A DNA stretch of 21,082 bases. It comes from Fibrobacterota bacterium. Lineage in GTDB: Bacteria > Fibrobacterota > Chitinivibrionia > Chitinivibrionales > FEN-1185. Of this stretch, positions 4,843 to 21,082 are shown in pieces; within the stretch, counting starts at the first letter, position 1; the number at the start of each line of letters is the position of its first letter. The translations under genes were made by a program, and so were the position numbers. The stretch spans positions 1 through 21,082 of the forward strand of contig PLWQ01000033.1 in the NCBI GenBank assembly GCA_003165595.1. Reading direction: 5' to 3'. A model generated the notes under the pieces. That model ran no database searches. It was not told the DNA's origin and saw only the letters and a list, made by a program, of their open reading frames with translations.

Positions 4843-5028
4843 CGAGCGAATTCGAATCTCTTTTCTTCCATAGGAATGGAAGATTCCCCGCAGGTTCGCA
4901 AGAGCGGCTACTCCTGTAGTGTTGCATGCAGTCGTAGTCGTGGTGCTGCGGGGTCTTTCAATTCGCCGGGAGGGTTTCAAATTAACATAATCCGTCTTGC
5001 CACCTGCGGCGTGGCCTGTTCCGCCCTT

Positions 5029-5089
5029 CCCGCCATCAGCGCCGCCCCTGCGGCCGGCGGATCGGCCGCTCGTGCTGTTCGAAGCCCGG
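5029..5089 (+). repeat. CCATCAGCG-type GC-rich intergenic repeat, copy A
   Basis: This 61-bp block lies in the 342-bp gap between the double glycosyltransferase and the ATPase gene. It starts CCGCCATCAGCG and ends CGTGCTGTTCGAAGCCCGG. It aligns end to end with 6774-6833, with about seven mismatches and one indel. The same CGCCATCAGCG start recurs at 6617 and 8011 inside larger repeats, which links this block to the family described at 7733-8276. I see no gene in the rest of the gap (4843-5104). Confidence 0.8.
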
Positions 5090-6524: not shown

Positions 6525-6717
6525 CCTTGACCGTTTTCCAGTCCCCCTCTCTGTGTCGGAGAGGGGGCGCCGGGGGTGAGGTCACGGAGAAAGCAGAAAC
6601 TGCGACATTTTCTTTCCGCCATCAGCGCCGCCCCTGCCGCTAAGCCGCGGTCAGGCAGCCCTGCGCTCCAGCGCCCTCTGCCGTCCTCCCTGGCGCGGCG
6701 CAGAAGAATGTTTGCCC
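6525..6717 (+). repeat. Composite structured repeat: E block plus truncated core (B)
   Basis: The first part (6525-6629) repeats at 7921-8023. It contains a perfect hairpin CCCCCTCTC / GAGAGGGGG, then CGCCGGGGGTGAGGTC, then an outer stem whose sequence differs between copies around the conserved inner hairpin GCRGAAACTGC, then CGCCATCAGCGCC. The second part (6648-6717) aligns with 7820-7889 through GCCCTGCGCTCCAGCGC and CCTGGCGC, so it is a 5'-truncated copy of the larger element. No plausible gene overlaps it. Confidence 0.8.
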
Positions 6718-6773
6718 ATCTGTAAATAGCATCATGCGAGGGGGTAATGTAGATTGTTACGCACCCTTGCATT

Positions 6774-6833
6774 TCCGCCATCAGCGACGGCCCTACGGCC
6801 TCCGGATTGGCCGCTCGTGCTGTTCGAGCCCGG
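6774..6833 (+). repeat. CCATCAGCG-type GC-rich intergenic repeat, copy C
   Basis: This block matches copy A (5029-5089) over its full length. It shares GGCCGCTCGTGCTGTTCGA and a GCCCGG end, with scattered substitutions. A and C therefore bracket the ATPase gene as direct repeats. Confidence 0.8.
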
Positions 6834-7055: not shown

Positions 7056-7724
7056 ATGACTTCCCCCACTCCCGCGCGCGGCCCCATCACCTGCATACCT
7101 TGCAAGAAAGAATGGCTGCCCGCCGTCGCCCTCCTTCACCAGCAGGGCATCACCACCGGGTTTCTCTCCCGGCTGGGCGCGCCGTTCCTTGCCGCGCTGT
7201 ACGGCGCGATCGCCTCTTCCCGATGGTCAAGGGTTTTCGTCGCCCTGTCGGATCAGCAGCCGGTGGGCTTCGTCGCCTGCAGCATCGACACGGGCCGCAT
7301 GTACGGTAACATTATATTGACAAAAGGCCTGCTCTTTGCGGCTTTGCTTCTGCCCAACGTACTCCGGATTTCCGTGCTCAGGAATATCTGCGAGACCATC
7401 CTGTATCCGGTTACGCACAGGGCCAAGGAGCCGCCGGCAAACCCGGCATCTGCGCAAATGTCAAACAGGGAGCCTCCAAAGGCCGAGCTTTTGTCCGTAG
7501 CCGTGGACAAACAATGGCAGGGCAGGGGCGTGGGAAAGCTGCTCGTTGCGGAAATGGGGCGGTATTTTGCCGAACGCGGCGTCACGCGATGCAAGGTGGT
7601 GACGCTTGCGAAAGACGAAACGTCCAACGGATTCTACAGGGCGGCGGGATTTGAATTTGCAGGCACGTTTGTTCATCACGGGAATGAGATGTGCGAATAT
7701 ATAAAAGCAATCCAACCTAAATAA
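7056..7724 (+). CDS. GNAT-family N-acetyltransferase
   Basis: This 222-residue protein is an acetyl-CoA-dependent N-acetyltransferase of the GNAT superfamily. The acetyl-CoA-binding motif A is LLSVAVDKQWQGRGVGKLLV, carrying the Q-x-x-G-x-G loop. It is followed by the NGFYRAAGF motif B region. The first 140 residues are longer than in a minimal GNAT and include hydrophobic stretches around residues 40-50 and 85-110. The ATG at 7056 has GGAG about 12 bases upstream. The gene precedes PglC-, PglE- and PglF-like genes, so the likely substrate is the 4-amino sugar nucleotide made by the aminotransferase, the job PglD does in Campylobacter with a different fold. That substrate is inferred from context. 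An unrelated small-molecule substrate remains possible. Confidence 0.88.
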   Translation: MTSPTPARGPITCIPCKKEWLPAVALLHQQGITTGFLSRLGAPFLAALYGAIASSRWSRVFVALSDQQPVGFVACSIDTGRMYGNIILTKGLLFAALLLPNVLRISVLRNICETILYPVTHRAKEPPANPASAQMSNREPPKAELLSVAVDKQWQGRGVGKLLVAEMGRYFAERGVTRCKVVTLAKDETSNGFYRAAGFEFAGTFVHHGNEMCEYIKAIQPK

Positions 7725-7732
7725 CTGGATTT

Positions 7733-8276
7733 GGGCGCCCCGCCGCTTCGCGGCGGCGGCCCTCCTTACACGCTCGGCCATTCGGCCTCGGTGCCGGTCC
7801 GCCCCGATGGCCTTCGGCCGGGGTCGGCCGGCCCTGCGCTCCAGCGCACGTTCCAGTCCTGCCTGGCGCTTGGCAGCAGGTTGATTCCACAATTGTCAAG
7901 CTCGTTATTGCGAGCACAGCAGCTGACCGTTTTCCGTCCCCCTCTCTCTGTCGGAGAGGGGGCGCCGGGGGTGAGGTCACGGAGGATGCGGAAACTGCAG
8001 GGCATCCTCTCGCCATCAGCGCCATACCGAAAGTCATTTGTCAGTCCCGCGGCGAGACTTCATTCGGGATTTTGAATTGCATCTTGTTTTGCACTGCCGC
8101 GTAGCGGCGTACCAATGAGGTTGCGTTGCAAAGGTCTGACGGCGCGTTTTGTGAAGCAAAACGCCTTGCCGCAGACCTTTGCAGGAAGGGGTATGGGTGC
8201 AGATCACCTCGCGCCGATCTGCGGCGCGAGGAAGCTGCACCCTAGGGGAAACCGCCTGCGGTTTCCCCACCAACAG
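7733..8276 (+). repeat. Structured intergenic element, copy R1
   Basis: This element fills the gap between the GNAT and PglC-like genes and begins within ten bases of the GNAT stop. Its 5' core has GGGCG, a stem CCGCCGC/GCGGCGG (7740-7756), GCTCGGCC...GGCCTCGGTGCCG, then GGTCGGCCGGCCCTGCGCTC and a CCACAATTGTCAAG box. A second repeat, the E block (7921-8023), is embedded. The 3' module (8096-8276) has GCCGC/GCGGC, an 11-bp stem (8128-8138 with 8172-8182), a stem GGGTGCAG/CTGCACCC enclosing CCTCGCGCC/GGCGCGAGG, and the palindrome GGGGAAACCGC/GCGGTTTCCCC followed by ACCAACAG. Copies R2, R3 and R4 share this plan. No credible reading frame spans it. Confidence 0.85.
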
Positions 8277-8318
8277 CTCTTACGTTTGTAATTTCAATAC
8301 TCAAAGCATCGACGTAAT

Positions 8319-8939
8319 ATGAACCCTTTATCAAAGCGCCTGTTCGACATCCTGGCCTCATTCCTCGGCCTGACCATACTCTTTGTCCCGTTCCTGGTCG
8401 TGGCCCTCATCATCAAAATCACCTCGCCCGGCCCTGTGCTGTTCCGGCAGAAAAGAATCGGCCGATGGGGCAAAGAATTCACCATTATCAAGTTCCGCAC
8501 CATGCGTCCCGGCGCGGAGCGCGGCGGAACCATAACCACGGCGGGCGACCGGAGAATTACGCCGATAGGCCGCATCCTCAGGCGTTTCAAGCTCGACGAG
8601 TTTCCTCAACTATGGAACGTGCTCATCGGCAGAATGTCCCTTGTCGGGCCCCGGCCCGACATGCCGGGCTATGCAGACAGGCTCCAGGGCGCCGACCGCA
8701 GGATACTGGAACTGAGGCCCGGCATCACCGGACCGGCATCGCTTTACTTTCGCAACGAAGAAAAGCTGCTCGCGGCCCGGGCCAACCCGCAGGATTACAA
8801 CGATACGGTTGTCTGGCCCGCCAAGGTCGCCCTCAACCGCGCGTACCTGGAAAACTGGAGCTTCCGGCGGGACATAGGATATATTTTAATTACGGTGGTA
8901 CCGGTGCTTAACAAATGGATCAGACTTGTTTCAAAATAG
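8319..8939 (+). CDS. PglC-like monotopic phosphoglycosyltransferase (bacterial sugar transferase)
   Basis: This 206-residue protein is a small, single-domain bacterial sugar transferase (PF02397). It would move a sugar-1-phosphate from UDP-sugar onto undecaprenyl phosphate, the committed first step of glycan assembly at the inner membrane. One hydrophobic re-entrant segment lies at residues 12-35 (ILASFLGLTILFVPFLVVAL). The signatures SPGPVLFRQKRIG, FTIIKFRTM and DEFPQLWNVLIGRMSLVGPRP follow. The essential Asp-Glu dyad is D93-E94, the same numbers as in characterised Campylobacter PglC. Its length also matches the PglC class rather than the longer WbaP/WcaJ type. The ATG at 8319 has no strong ribosome site. 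Copy R1 ends 42 bases upstream, so R1 is likely in or near its leader. Confidence 0.93.
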   Translation: MNPLSKRLFDILASFLGLTILFVPFLVVALIIKITSPGPVLFRQKRIGRWGKEFTIIKFRTMRPGAERGGTITTAGDRRITPIGRILRRFKLDEFPQLWNVLIGRMSLVGPRPDMPGYADRLQGADRRILELRPGITGPASLYFRNEEKLLAARANPQDYNDTVVWPAKVALNRAYLENWSFRRDIGYILITVVPVLNKWIRLVSK

Positions 8940-8942
8940 AGA

Positions 8943-9387
8943 AAAAGGCCTGGGCGTTACCCGGCCTATGGCCGGGTCGGTCTCCCTGCGGGCTCGGCCC
9001 TAGGCCTCGGTGCCGCCCGTCACAATGTCGCTTCGCGCCGTGGTCGGCCGGCCCCGCGCTCCAGCGCGCCTTTCGGTCCACCTAACGCTTGGCACAAAGT
9101 TGATGCAACATCTGTCAAGGTCGGCCAACGCGACATGAGAGTATGTAATCAGGCCAAGGATGATAGCCCAAGAGCGTCGCCGCCCAGACGTTCTTGTCTT
9201 TGGCGAAATCCGGCTTCGGTCACCACGATCGCTCGTGGGTGCCCCCTAGCCGCAGATTGATTCTTGCAGCAGTACTCTCTTGGGGGTCACCCAGGAGGGC
9301 ATGCGCCCGCCCAACAGCAAGGGCGGAAAGCGCCGGAAGACCGGCGGCACGCCGGGCTGAAGCGAGGGGGAGACTTCCCCCACCAAA
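8943..9387 (+). repeat. Structured intergenic element, copy R2
   Basis: This copy fills the gap between the PglC- and PglE-like genes and begins a few bases after the PglC stop. Its core aligns with R1 and R3: GGGCG, the stem CCCGGCC/GGCCGGG (8960-8976), GCTCGGCCctaGGCCTCGGTGCCG, and GGTCGGCCGGCCCCGCGCTC. These lead to CGCTTGGCACAAAGTTGATG. Its 3' part differs from R1. It has a hairpin near 9238-9295 (GGGTGCCCCC with GGGGGTCACCC), a block GCCCGCCCAAC...GGGCGGAAAGCGCC shared with R3, and an end palindrome GGGGGA/TCCCCC followed by ACCAAAACA. The element stops about 25 bases before the aminotransferase ATG. Confidence 0.82.
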
Positions 9388-9411
9388 ACAACCTTGTCCA
9401 AGCCAATCACC

Positions 9412-10548
9412 ATGAAATCCACCTTTCCCCGCATCTATCTAAGCCCTCCCCATATGTCCGGCCGCGAGCTCGACTTTATCCACGACGCCTTTGCCTCAAA
9501 CTGGATAGCGCCCATCGGCCCGCATGTCGATGCGTTTGAAAAGGAATTCTGCCGGGTAACCGGCGCGCCGTTCGCCGCGGCGGTGAGTTCGGGCACGGCC
9601 GCGCTTCACCTTGCCCTGCTGCTGGCGGATGTGGGTCCCGGCGACGACGTCGCGTGTTCAACCTTTACATTTGCGGGAAGCGCGTTTCCCATCGTATACC
9701 GCGGCGCGACGCCGGTTTTCGTCGACTCCGAAGAACAATCCTGGAACATGGACCCTCGGCTTCTCGAAGACGCAATGGTCGACAGAAAGAAAAAGGGGAA
9801 GCGGGTGAAGGCGGTTGTGGTTGTGCATTTGTACGGGCAAAGCGCCGACCTCGATGAGATTGCCGTCATTTGCGGCCGTCACGATAGTATCCTTATCGAA
9901 GACGCGGCGGAATCGCTCGGCGCGACATACAAGGGGAAAACCACCGGCACCATGGGCCGCATCGGGATATTTTCCTTCAACGGGAACAAGATCGTCACCA
10001 CCTCCGGCGGAGGCATGCTGGTTTCCGGAGACACAGCGCTGGTTGACAAAGCGCGATTTCTCGCCACGCAGGCGCGCGACCCTGCGCCGCACTACGAACA
10101 CTCGTGTGTCGGCTACAATTACAGGATGAGCAACGTTCTCGCCGGTATCGGCAGGGCCCAGCTTGGCGTTTTGCAGGAGCGGGTGGCGGCAAAGCGGCGG
10201 ATTTTTGCGGCATACCGCGAGGCCCTGTCCCCAATGCCGGGATTCGACTTCATGCCCGAAGCGGACTGGGGCGTACCCAACCGGTGGCTCACCTGTGTTA
10301 CCATCGATCCGGCCAAGGCAGGGTTCTCGGCAGAAGACGTGCGGCTCAGGCTCGAAGCGGCAAACATCGAAGGCCGGCCGTTGTGGAAACCCATGCATCT
10401 GCAGCCGGTCTTTTCCGGCGCGCCCGCATTTGTCAACGGAATTTCTGAAGAACTATTTGCAAAAGGGCTGTGTTTGCCGTCCGGTACGGCAATGACAAAT
10501 GAAGACTTGGAAAGGGTGATTGCGTGCGTAAAGAGTGTGGGAAAGTAA
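9412..10548 (+). CDS. DegT/DnrJ/EryC1/StrS-family sugar aminotransferase (PglE-like)
   Basis: This 378-residue protein is a PLP-dependent sugar aminotransferase. It would transfer an amino group, usually from glutamate, to the C4 ketone made by the downstream 4,6-dehydratase. Family features in order are the N-terminal IYLSPPHMSGREL, the cofactor loop SSGTAALHLAL, DVACSTFTFAGSA, VVHLYGQSAD, the IEDAAESLGATYKGK Asp, and FSFNGNKIVTTSGGGML with the PLP-binding lysine at residue 193. The substrate-side GYNYRMSNVLAGIGRAQLG and a normal C-terminal end follow. An in-frame TTG at 9394 is possible, but the family N-terminus begins at the ATG at 9412. No clear Shine-Dalgarno site is visible for either start, which is notable so close to repeat R2. 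The exact sugar is not determinable. Confidence 0.93.
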   Translation: MKSTFPRIYLSPPHMSGRELDFIHDAFASNWIAPIGPHVDAFEKEFCRVTGAPFAAAVSSGTAALHLALLLADVGPGDDVACSTFTFAGSAFPIVYRGATPVFVDSEEQSWNMDPRLLEDAMVDRKKKGKRVKAVVVVHLYGQSADLDEIAVICGRHDSILIEDAAESLGATYKGKTTGTMGRIGIFSFNGNKIVTTSGGGMLVSGDTALVDKARFLATQARDPAPHYEHSCVGYNYRMSNVLAGIGRAQLGVLQERVAAKRRIFAAYREALSPMPGFDFMPEADWGVPNRWLTCVTIDPAKAGFSAEDVRLRLEAANIEGRPLWKPMHLQPVFSGAPAFVNGISEELFAKGLCLPSGTAMTNEDLERVIACVKSVGK

Positions 10549-10584
10549 GTGAGAAGTGGCGGATTTCCAGCAATTGTATAGTGA

Positions 10585-11069
10585 CTTGCTGGAGGGAAAA
10601 CCGCGCGCGGTTTCCCCTGGCCCCCGGCTTCCGGCGTTGCACGCCGGCGATCCGGGGGCACACCCCATCCAGCAGAAACGTGCGCGAGGCGCAACGCTTG
10701 CGCATTGCGCGCGTCACGTTTCCGCAACGCTTTCTCATTGGAACGCCGCTTCGCGGCTGTGAGGGTAAAACGGAGCAACACAGCAATTGCTCCCGCGCAG
10801 CAGACCTTGACAATTGTGGAACCAATCTTTTGCCCTGCGTTAGGTGGACCGCAGCTTGCGCCCGCCCAACTGGAAGGGCGGAAAGCGCCGCGAGAGCGCA
10901 GGGCCGCCTGACCCGGGCCATGAGGCCATAGGGCAGGCGGCACCGAGGCCATTGGCCGAGCCTGTAGGGAGACCGGCCCCGCGCAGCGGGGCAACGCCCA
11001 AATCTTTTCTGGCTCGGAGCGCCCAGCATGAGGGCGTATAGCGGCGCTTGCGGTTTCCCCACCAGCAAG
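10585..11069 (-). repeat. Structured intergenic element, copy R3 (reversed), with terminal inverted repeats
   Basis: This 485-bp element is the most complete copy and lies in reverse orientation. Its ends are inverted repeats: CTTGCTGGAGGGAAAACCGC at 10585-10604 against the complement of 11050-11069, 18 of 20 matching. Read on the minus strand, it contains GGGCG, the stem CCCCGC/GCGGGG (10977-10991), GCTCGGCC...GGCCTCGGTGCCG, the CCACAATTGTCAAG box, then the 3' module. That module has GCCGCGAAGCGGC, an 11-bp stem (10715-10725 with 10672-10682), the nested hairpin GCCCCCGG/CCGGGGGC, and the GGGAAAACCGC palindrome. It carries no transposase. An extra TCCAGCAA at 10566-10573 pairs with its left end. 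No target duplication is obvious. Confidence 0.87.
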
Positions 11070-15417: not shown

Positions 15418-15669
15418 AAGTTCAAAGTTGAAAGTCTGGGCGACAAACCCGTAAATGCATTTAAGGGCACCTCTAAAAATTGTCCCGATGTCATTGCGAG
15501 GAGCGTAGCGACGTGGCACCACAGCCCTACAGGAGTAGACGCTCCTGCGAATCTCCCGCAATTCTTTGCAAAAACGCGAGATTGCTTCGCTTTGCTCGCA
15601 ATGACAAAACGCGTTTTTGAATATCTAGATGTCCCCTTAGGATTACTTTCAACTTTCAACTTTGAACTT
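15418..15669. repeat. Repeat cassette with 18-bp outer inverted repeats and inner MITE-like element, inserted in the zinc operon
   Basis: An 18-bp perfect inverted repeat (AAGTTCAAAGTTGAAAGT at 15418-15435, complement at 15652-15669) flanks a smaller element at 15462-15639. That element has imperfect 19-bp terminal inverted repeats starting TAAGGG, 15 of 19 matching. Inside, GTCATTGCGAG (from about 15489) pairs with CTCGCAATGAC (to about 15604), and AGGAG pairs with CTCCT. The right end matches the window start (1-54) at 52 of 54. The CATTGCGAG...CTCGCAATGAC wording is like dispersed palindromic repeats known in many bacteria. No gene is present. Confidence 0.87.
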
Positions 15670-20818: not shown

Positions 20819-21082
20819 AGGGGAAGTTTCCCCCTCTCTCCAGCCTCCTCGGCCTTCGGCCTGCGGTGGCTTGCGCTACCCCCTCGGCAGGTGCACCCCA
20901 AGAGGGCGCAGTTGCAAGCGTCAACACCCGTGTGGGGGCACCTGGAGGCGGCAGTTGAACGGTTTTTATGTGGCCGCGAAGCGGCATACCATTGAGGTTG
21001 CGTTGCGAAGGTGCGACGACGCACGAGCGTCAGCGGCGCACCTTCGCAGGAAGGGGTGTGCCTTGTATGTAGAGGCGTAGCG
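20819..21082 (+). repeat. Structured intergenic element, copy R4 (incomplete at window end)
   Basis: After the ABC-F gene the sequence has a palindrome GAGGGGAA/TTCCCCCTC (20818-20836) and a long hairpin whose arms are CAGGTGC and GCACCTG (about 20889-20943). Read in reverse, this hairpin resembles the one in R2 near 9238-9295. From 20973 comes a close copy of the R1 3' module: GCCGCGAAGCGGC, CATTGAGGTTGCGTTGC, a perfect 11-bp stem (21005-21015 with 21037-21047) and AGGAAGGGGTGTG. The window ends before the next expected hairpin. Confidence 0.82.

Follow-up and report, generated by a model that had tools for sequence, protein, structure and literature searches.

What occupies three long intergenic gaps in one short stretch of bacterial DNA: an RNA that serves the host, or a repeat that moves? 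The question is raised by a contig of a Fibrobacterota bacterium (PLWQ01000033.1, assembly GCA_003165595.1), of which positions 1–21,082, here called the window, were analysed as a whole. An original prediction, made from the letters of the window, had aligned three copies of an element (R1, R2 and, in reverse, R3) whose stems differ in sequence while the junctions between them stay fixed, and had offered three options: a large structured RNA, the leader or tail of neighbouring transcripts, or a mobile structured repeat. The last of these is the best: copies are numerous, they occur in some relatives and not in others, their positions differ from those in a congeneric genome, and phage genomes carry them as well. 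A leader or tail fits poorly, since copies lie in both orientations relative to genes, and with a core of about 137 nt the element can hardly be called large. In our view, the copies probably belong to a dispersed mobile repeat that is non-autonomous, is recognised in the form of a folded single strand and is of the kind represented by Flavo-1 (Rfam RF01705).

Direct reading of the sequence bore out the first stem (P1) exactly as described, with a 3-nt loop in each copy: CCGCCGC TTC GCGGCGG in R1 (plus strand, 7740–7746 paired with 7750–7756), CCCGGCC TAT GGCCGGG in R2 (plus strand, 8960–8966 with 8970–8976) and CCCCGC TGC GCGGGG in R3 (minus strand, 10991–10986 with 10982–10977). The conserved stretch GCTCGGCC...GGCCTCGGTGCCG likewise follows this stem in all three. 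What did not hold was the homology of the entire gaps (445–544 nt), as the common part comprises the core plus about 40–50 nt. The core extends over 137 nt in R1 (7733–7869, plus strand, terminal pair GCGCC/GGCGC; 108.1 bits with our covariance model) and in R2 (8952–9088, plus strand, terminal pair GCGTT/AACGC; 123.3 bits), and over 163 nt in R3 (10837–10999, minus strand; 86.0 bits), because a second hairpin module, GCGCTTTCCGCCCTTNNNGTTGGGCGGGCGC, is inserted within helix P4.

The structure was built by hand over an alignment of 23 copies (A1), because the RNAalifold fold of the raw alignment was partly wrong. It consists, in order, of an unpaired GG, the terminal helix P0, P1, Px (alignment columns 32–33 with 141–142), a 2-bp helix (39–40/134–135) and the inner helices P5 (44–46/127–130), P2 (GGCC/GGCC), P3 (a long hairpin with a 3-nt bulge) and P4. 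Even the terminal helix varies while remaining paired: besides GCGTT/AACGC, it reads GCGCC/GGCGC in R1 and L026, and GCGCG/CGCGC in L021. In A1, 92.3% of the cells pair and 23 pairs display changes on both sides; when the partners are slid by 1–3 columns, pairing falls to 36–45%. An extended alignment of 93 distinct copies with a 45-pair structure (A4) gave 93.9% paired cells (34–46% with slid partners), both-sided changes in 37 of the 45 pairs, and 567 compensatory cells versus 177 in shuffled alignments. The covariation score was 0.363 compared with 0.123 after shuffling, and none of 500 shuffles reached the observed score. The most conserved stretch is P2 (helix 6; positions 7776–7787 of R1, plus strand), which is paired in 100% of the cells.

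Since A4 had been fitted to the covariance model, two controls were added. Our own implementation of an R-scape-like test (FastTree tree, Fitch substitutions redistributed over columns), a version of the covariation check put forward with the original prediction, identified 11 pairs at E<0.05, every one inside the structure. A structure-blind MAFFT alignment left 6 significant pairs, all of them pairs of the structure. Counted along the tree, 178 double changes lead from one paired state to another, versus 148 single changes that leave the Watson-Crick state. Selection on a folded nucleic acid, as proposed, is thus strongly supported by covariation over nine to ten helices, including long-range ones of 2–3 bp, against a tree-aware null. 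The structure is under selection in the copies, or these were recently amplified from sources in which it was selected. Single-sequence folding (z −1.8 to −2.7, both strands alike) is weak evidence because of the GC content. As for the strand, single changes from a Watson-Crick pair to G.T outnumber those to A.C (46 versus 26 tree events; 69 versus 26 cells outside P1), which modestly favours the GGGCG strand as the folded, likely sense strand; this excess does not separate RNA from single-stranded DNA. It is worth mentioning that the P1 loops of L005, L007, L009, L015 and L022 contain nested palindromes of the TGTAGGGGCGCAC type, some of them with runs of N from the assembly. An internally deleted copy, L316 (G162:C35), consists of P0, P1 and Px alone (GGGCGTTCCCCGCGCTCCGCACGGGTCGGACTATCCCTAACGC) and suggests that this three-helix junction is the minimal unit.

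Copies were counted in sampled stretches (1.95 Mb together) of the own genome, G000 (5.39 Mb), and of the congeneric genome G001. With the covariance model, 37 copies were detected in 1.18 Mb of G000 (E≤0.01; about 31 per Mb, which extrapolates to about 170 in the whole genome), and 34 in 0.77 Mb of G001; all 81 scored candidates of G000 matched the model. Together with the covariation score, the 37 copies of G000 place the likeness of the three window copies far beyond chance. The copies average about 0.74 GC in a genome of 0.56 GC. Their placement was examined for the 71 copies of both samples, using genes from our own gene caller. Four overlap a called gene, and three of these calls are of minimal score. 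Among the remaining 67, 43 lie directly 3' of a gene on the same strand, mostly 15–60 nt past the stop codon, and 24 are antisense to the gene on their 5' side. From the numbers of gaps, about 9 copies would be expected in convergent and about 21 in divergent ones, whereas 20 and 5, respectively, were observed.

None of four informative orthologous positions is occupied in both G000 and G001, the orthology of the sampled contigs being too sparse for exact junctions to be read. The closest copies within one genome are 93–95% identical. The occurrence of the element, as seen by this covariance model, is patchy: it is missing from a second genus of the family and from most of the order, but a genome of a different family holds 19 copies. 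Many full copies are preceded, 30–50 nt upstream, by truncated left ends (TGGGCGCCCCGCTGC in G000, loci L016, L020, L023 and L027; TTGGGCGYCTTCTCG in G003, loci L211, L214, L219, L221 and L233), which look like left-end pieces added in tandem. There are also facing pairs of elements, about 100–400 nt apart, with right ends inward and left ends toward the genes (L120:18315–18786, L140:5844–6220, L108:9397–9989 and L145:9333–9806).

Related forms extend beyond these genomes. Of the phylum's 167 genomes, 74 contain a P1 pattern, whereas the reversed control gave hardly any matches. Genome G003 carries forms of about 97 nt which keep P0, P1, Px and P2, and within this single genome P0 occurs as GCGTT/AACGC, GGGTT/AACCC, GTGTT/AACAC, GCCTT/AAGGC and GTCTT/AAGAC; in G035 it reads GCGTG/CACGC. 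In a pattern scan of named genomes, two metagenome-assembled genomes (MAGs) of Treponema and one Leptospiraceae MAG were found to share the ends and the first hairpin, and further Treponema copies have the P0 GCGCA/TGCGC. In addition, the pattern GGGCGTTNCCC...GGGTCGGGCT is present in 46 viral contigs, nearly all with the end ATCCCTAACGC, at lengths of 60–162 nt. These phage copies, too, often begin no more than about 30 nt from a stop codon, one example being at the end of a large terminase gene. In phage contigs L254 and L257 a copy follows a small-terminase-like gene, and the related contigs L267, L274 and L278 have no copy there; a terminase-based search for empty phage sites returned the query contigs alone.

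The viral forms provide the link to a named family. The statement that no named RNA family includes the element is correct as far as the window is concerned, since the Rfam check suggested with the original prediction found no family covering its copies (RF01705 gave no match in the window at the gathering score or at E≤5, and none in G000 at E≤1), and by Rfam's own test the window element therefore stands outside RF01705. A minus-strand match of R1 to Twister-sister (20 bits, E 4.1, gathering score 34) was discarded as chance, and literature searches with the end sequences yielded chance matches only. For the viral short form (GGGCGTT...CCCTAACGC) the same statement fails, as part of it matches Flavo-1 in antisense: the copy in L273 scores 44.9 bits, above the gathering score of 42, and those in five further loci (L239, L246, L251, L265 and L275) remain below it at 30–35 bits (E 0.001–0.02). 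In every case the match lies opposite to the GGGCG strand and covers Px and the central hairpin only. Because the intermediates share P0, P1, the unpaired C and T beside Px, and Px itself, the window element is probably a distant relative of Flavo-1.

Both the window element and Flavo-1 are widespread, are not cis-regulatory by genomic position and have no explained function. They differ in that RF01705 is modelled on the opposite strand and omits P0 and P1, the parts common to the whole set analysed here, and in that the window form carries the extra inner hairpins P2, P3 and P4 (about 137 nt versus 76 model positions). In the list of Weinberg et al. 2010 (PMC2864571), Flavo-1 of Bacteroidetes figures as a probable RNA that is not cis-regulatory. 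In RNA-seq of Flavobacterium psychrophilum, its matches lie indistinctly sense and antisense of transcribed regions, and many lie outside them (PMC9723704), a pattern that is easier to reconcile with a dispersed repeat than with an RNA gene.

If the element is mobile in this way, the recognised form would be a folded single strand of either RNA or DNA, whose sense is probably that of the GGGCG strand. The core plan comprises the unpaired GG, P0 at the very ends, P1 beside it and Px closing an inner domain whose hairpins differ between lineages. Since P0, P1 and Px retain their pairing but not their sequence, we propose that the copying or inserting machinery reads shape and not fixed inverted repeats. 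Most copies come to lie shortly after stop codons, and both strands are used. The element would work like those of which Flavo-1 in Rfam models a part.

A partner enzyme was sought among four candidates, and none of them (reverse transcriptase, Y1 transposase, TnpB, IS110) follows the occurrence of the element. The reverse transcriptase domain RVT_1 (PF00078) is absent from G001 and G003, has one divergent match in G000 and is common in non-carriers. The TnpB/Cas12f-type zinc domain (PF07282) is missing from the carriers G000, G001, G003 and G035, and the IS110 DEDD transposase from G000, G003 and G035, with one in G001. Y1 transposases, the class that includes RAYT, number 2, 2 and 8 in carriers, but are also present in most non-carriers. 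That none of these candidates tracks the element counts against a mobile repeat, as do several other observations. No insertion with exact boundaries and a target duplication was recovered, the presence/absence pairs having too diverged flanks, and for this reason transposition is something that we infer. Most copies are 75–90% alike and there was no burst of identical ones. Purifying selection alone would also leave copies intergenic and past stop codons, and the share of broken pairs (about 6%) is so low that each copy might be under selection. Finally, RF01705 does not match the window copies, and it models the strand opposite to the GGGCG strand, which the G.T excess favours modestly only.

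Some of these points lend weight to the view that the copies form a functional RNA family (small RNAs or 3' untranslated region elements) which is multicopy by chance, each copy being selected for its fold, for example for protection of mRNA 3' ends or for protein binding. The strong covariation with so few unpaired cells, the 43 copies directly 3' of a same-strand gene and the one-sided excess of G.T over A.C all speak for it. Nevertheless, we regard it as rather unlikely, given the 24 copies antisense to the gene on their 5' side, the positions unshared with the congener, its absence from most relatives (one of them a second genus of the family) and the ordinary polysaccharide cluster in which the window copies lie. 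Least credible of all is that the covariation arose by mutation and not selection, through template switching that keeps hairpins perfect (quasipalindrome correction). P1 alone could be explained in this manner, being a nearly perfect hairpin of neighbouring arms that are exchanged as a whole. The long-range short helices could not, as significant or consistent covariation is also found in helices of 2–5 bp whose strands lie more than 80 nt apart (P0, Px, 39–40/134–135 and P5).

Two further explanations keep the element at the level of DNA. Small size, absence of coding capacity, high copy number, intergenic location and complementary ends are features of a classical miniature inverted-repeat transposable element (MITE), i.e. 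an insertion sequence (IS) derivative that a transposase mobilises in trans, recognising the terminal inverted repeats in double-stranded form. Here, however, the complementary ends span only about 5 bp and are free to vary in sequence while pairing holds, no target duplication was seen (the flanks of presence/absence pairs being too diverged for junctions to be read), and the Y1 transposases do not track the element, other IS families not having been surveyed; a MITE is thus very improbable. The element might instead be a structured site of recombination or gene shuffling, used like the attC sites of integrons to join genes and islands. Like attC, it lies after stop codons and would be recognised by shape rather than sequence. 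This use is favoured by the genus g24, which presumably corresponds to Fibrobacter. In g24, displaced 3' fragments of housekeeping genes, among them nifJ and carB, have the element exactly at their 5' edge. G066 carries, besides an intact nifJ, two 3' remnants of this gene, and an antisense element with an A-rich linker stands in front of each; moreover, G066 and G042 have a PIN-gene block in common, upstream of which they diverge exactly from the first base (5' end) of the element. Rearrangement breakpoints thus lie at the element in this genus, by way of transposition, adjacent deletion or recombination. Yet such breakpoints could equally stem from recombination between, or deletion beside, copies of a mobile repeat, the genomes concerned are drafts, and none of the copies sampled in the own genome was found to have gene fragments of this sort next to it. 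The attC consensus runs RYYYAAC...GTTRRRY; the ends of the element read GCGTT...AACGC on both strands, which is the reverse order, and the window holds no cassette arrangement. Consequently, we consider a recombination site unlikely.

The g24 islands themselves lie inside or just after nifJ and carB (L331, i.e. G066:C4:372000–391000, L329, L330, L334 and L337). They restore the host gene and leave displaced 3' remnants, with the element at the outer end of the island, and their cargo includes toxin-antitoxin and PIN genes and lipoprotein-like paralogues. Within the displaced nifJ fragment of L331 there are two insertions of 90–100 nt (7160–7260 and 7746–7845) which belong to other small folded repeats (TGTGAGCCGTAGGCGAC... 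and GACTTGTGCTCTCGCCTACGACGACAA...), and for which the intact nifJ of the same genome provides near-exact empty sites.

A dispersed mobile repeat of the kind favoured here resembles REP/RAYT, ERIC, BOX and NEMIS in being multicopy, intergenic, folded, non-autonomous and often near gene ends. It departs from them in its multi-junction fold, kept by covariation with free sequence even in the end pairing, and no association with RAYT-type transposases was found in the genomes compared. As with the omega-RNA of TnpB/IscB and the bridge RNA of IS110, a structured RNA would be tied to mobile DNA; unlike those systems, the partner proteins do not track the element, and Rfam found no HEARO match in the window (IscB itself was not searched directly). 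A bolder proposal, which we put forward tentatively and regard as more doubtful than not, is that a mobile superfamily spans this phylum, Spirochaetota, phages and, via Flavo-1, Bacteroidota. Such a superfamily would be defined by a three-way-junction fold with self-pairing ends and not by sequence, and would move as a folded single strand without a reverse transcriptase or a known RNA-guided nuclease; Flavo-1 would represent only its inner, wrong-strand fragment. If the reading favoured here as a whole is right, the Flavo-1 motif would be framed not as a regulatory RNA but as a mobile element with a common end architecture in several phyla and phages, and DNA would be copied by an unrecognised enzyme that reads the shape into which a strand folds. 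To seek this enzyme, the own genome with its roughly 170 copies, along with a relative that has five types of end pair, would be a good place. For annotation, the element would serve as a warning that covariation by itself is no proof of a functional host RNA.

Within the window, R1 starts 9 nt past the stop codon of a GNAT gene (7056–7724) and R2 12 nt past that of a sugar transferase gene (8319–8939); R3 is antisense to both neighbouring genes. The genes beside R1 and R2 are part of the polysaccharide cluster. All three copies share a right arm, GGCA...TTCCACAATTGTCAAG, located at 7867–7903 in R1 (plus strand; blastn, R1 135–171 with R3 231–267, 81%), at 9074–9125 in R2 (plus strand; R2 132–183 with R3 219–270, 79%) and at 10800–10851 in R3 (minus strand; blastn between copies). 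A right arm of the R1 type also follows many other copies. The sequence outside the core and right arm is a mosaic of other repeats. A distal module, a separate repeat with the end GGTTTCCCCACCA, occupies 8092–8275 in R1 (plus strand) and 10587–10761 in R3 (minus strand; blastn between copies), its two copies being 67% alike (R1 360–543 with R3 309–483), and partly recurs at 20973–21022. R2 lacks this block and carries in its tail a different module (9299–9343, minus strand), an inverted copy of the hairpin module from P4 of R3 (R2 357–401 with R3 216–172, 87%).

The own genome is crowded with small repeats. An unrelated intergenic repeat of 69 nt (CCCCTCTCTNTGTCGGAGAGGGGGCGCCGGGGGTGAGG) is present at 6535–6603 and 7930–7998 of the window (91% alike), and other dispersed families occur at 5027–5082, 6613–6668 and 6772–6827, and at 1–59 and 15584–15642 (TTTCCGCCATCAGCGCCGCCCCTGCGGCC... 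and GCTTCGCTTTGCTCGCAATGACAAAACGCG..., respectively).

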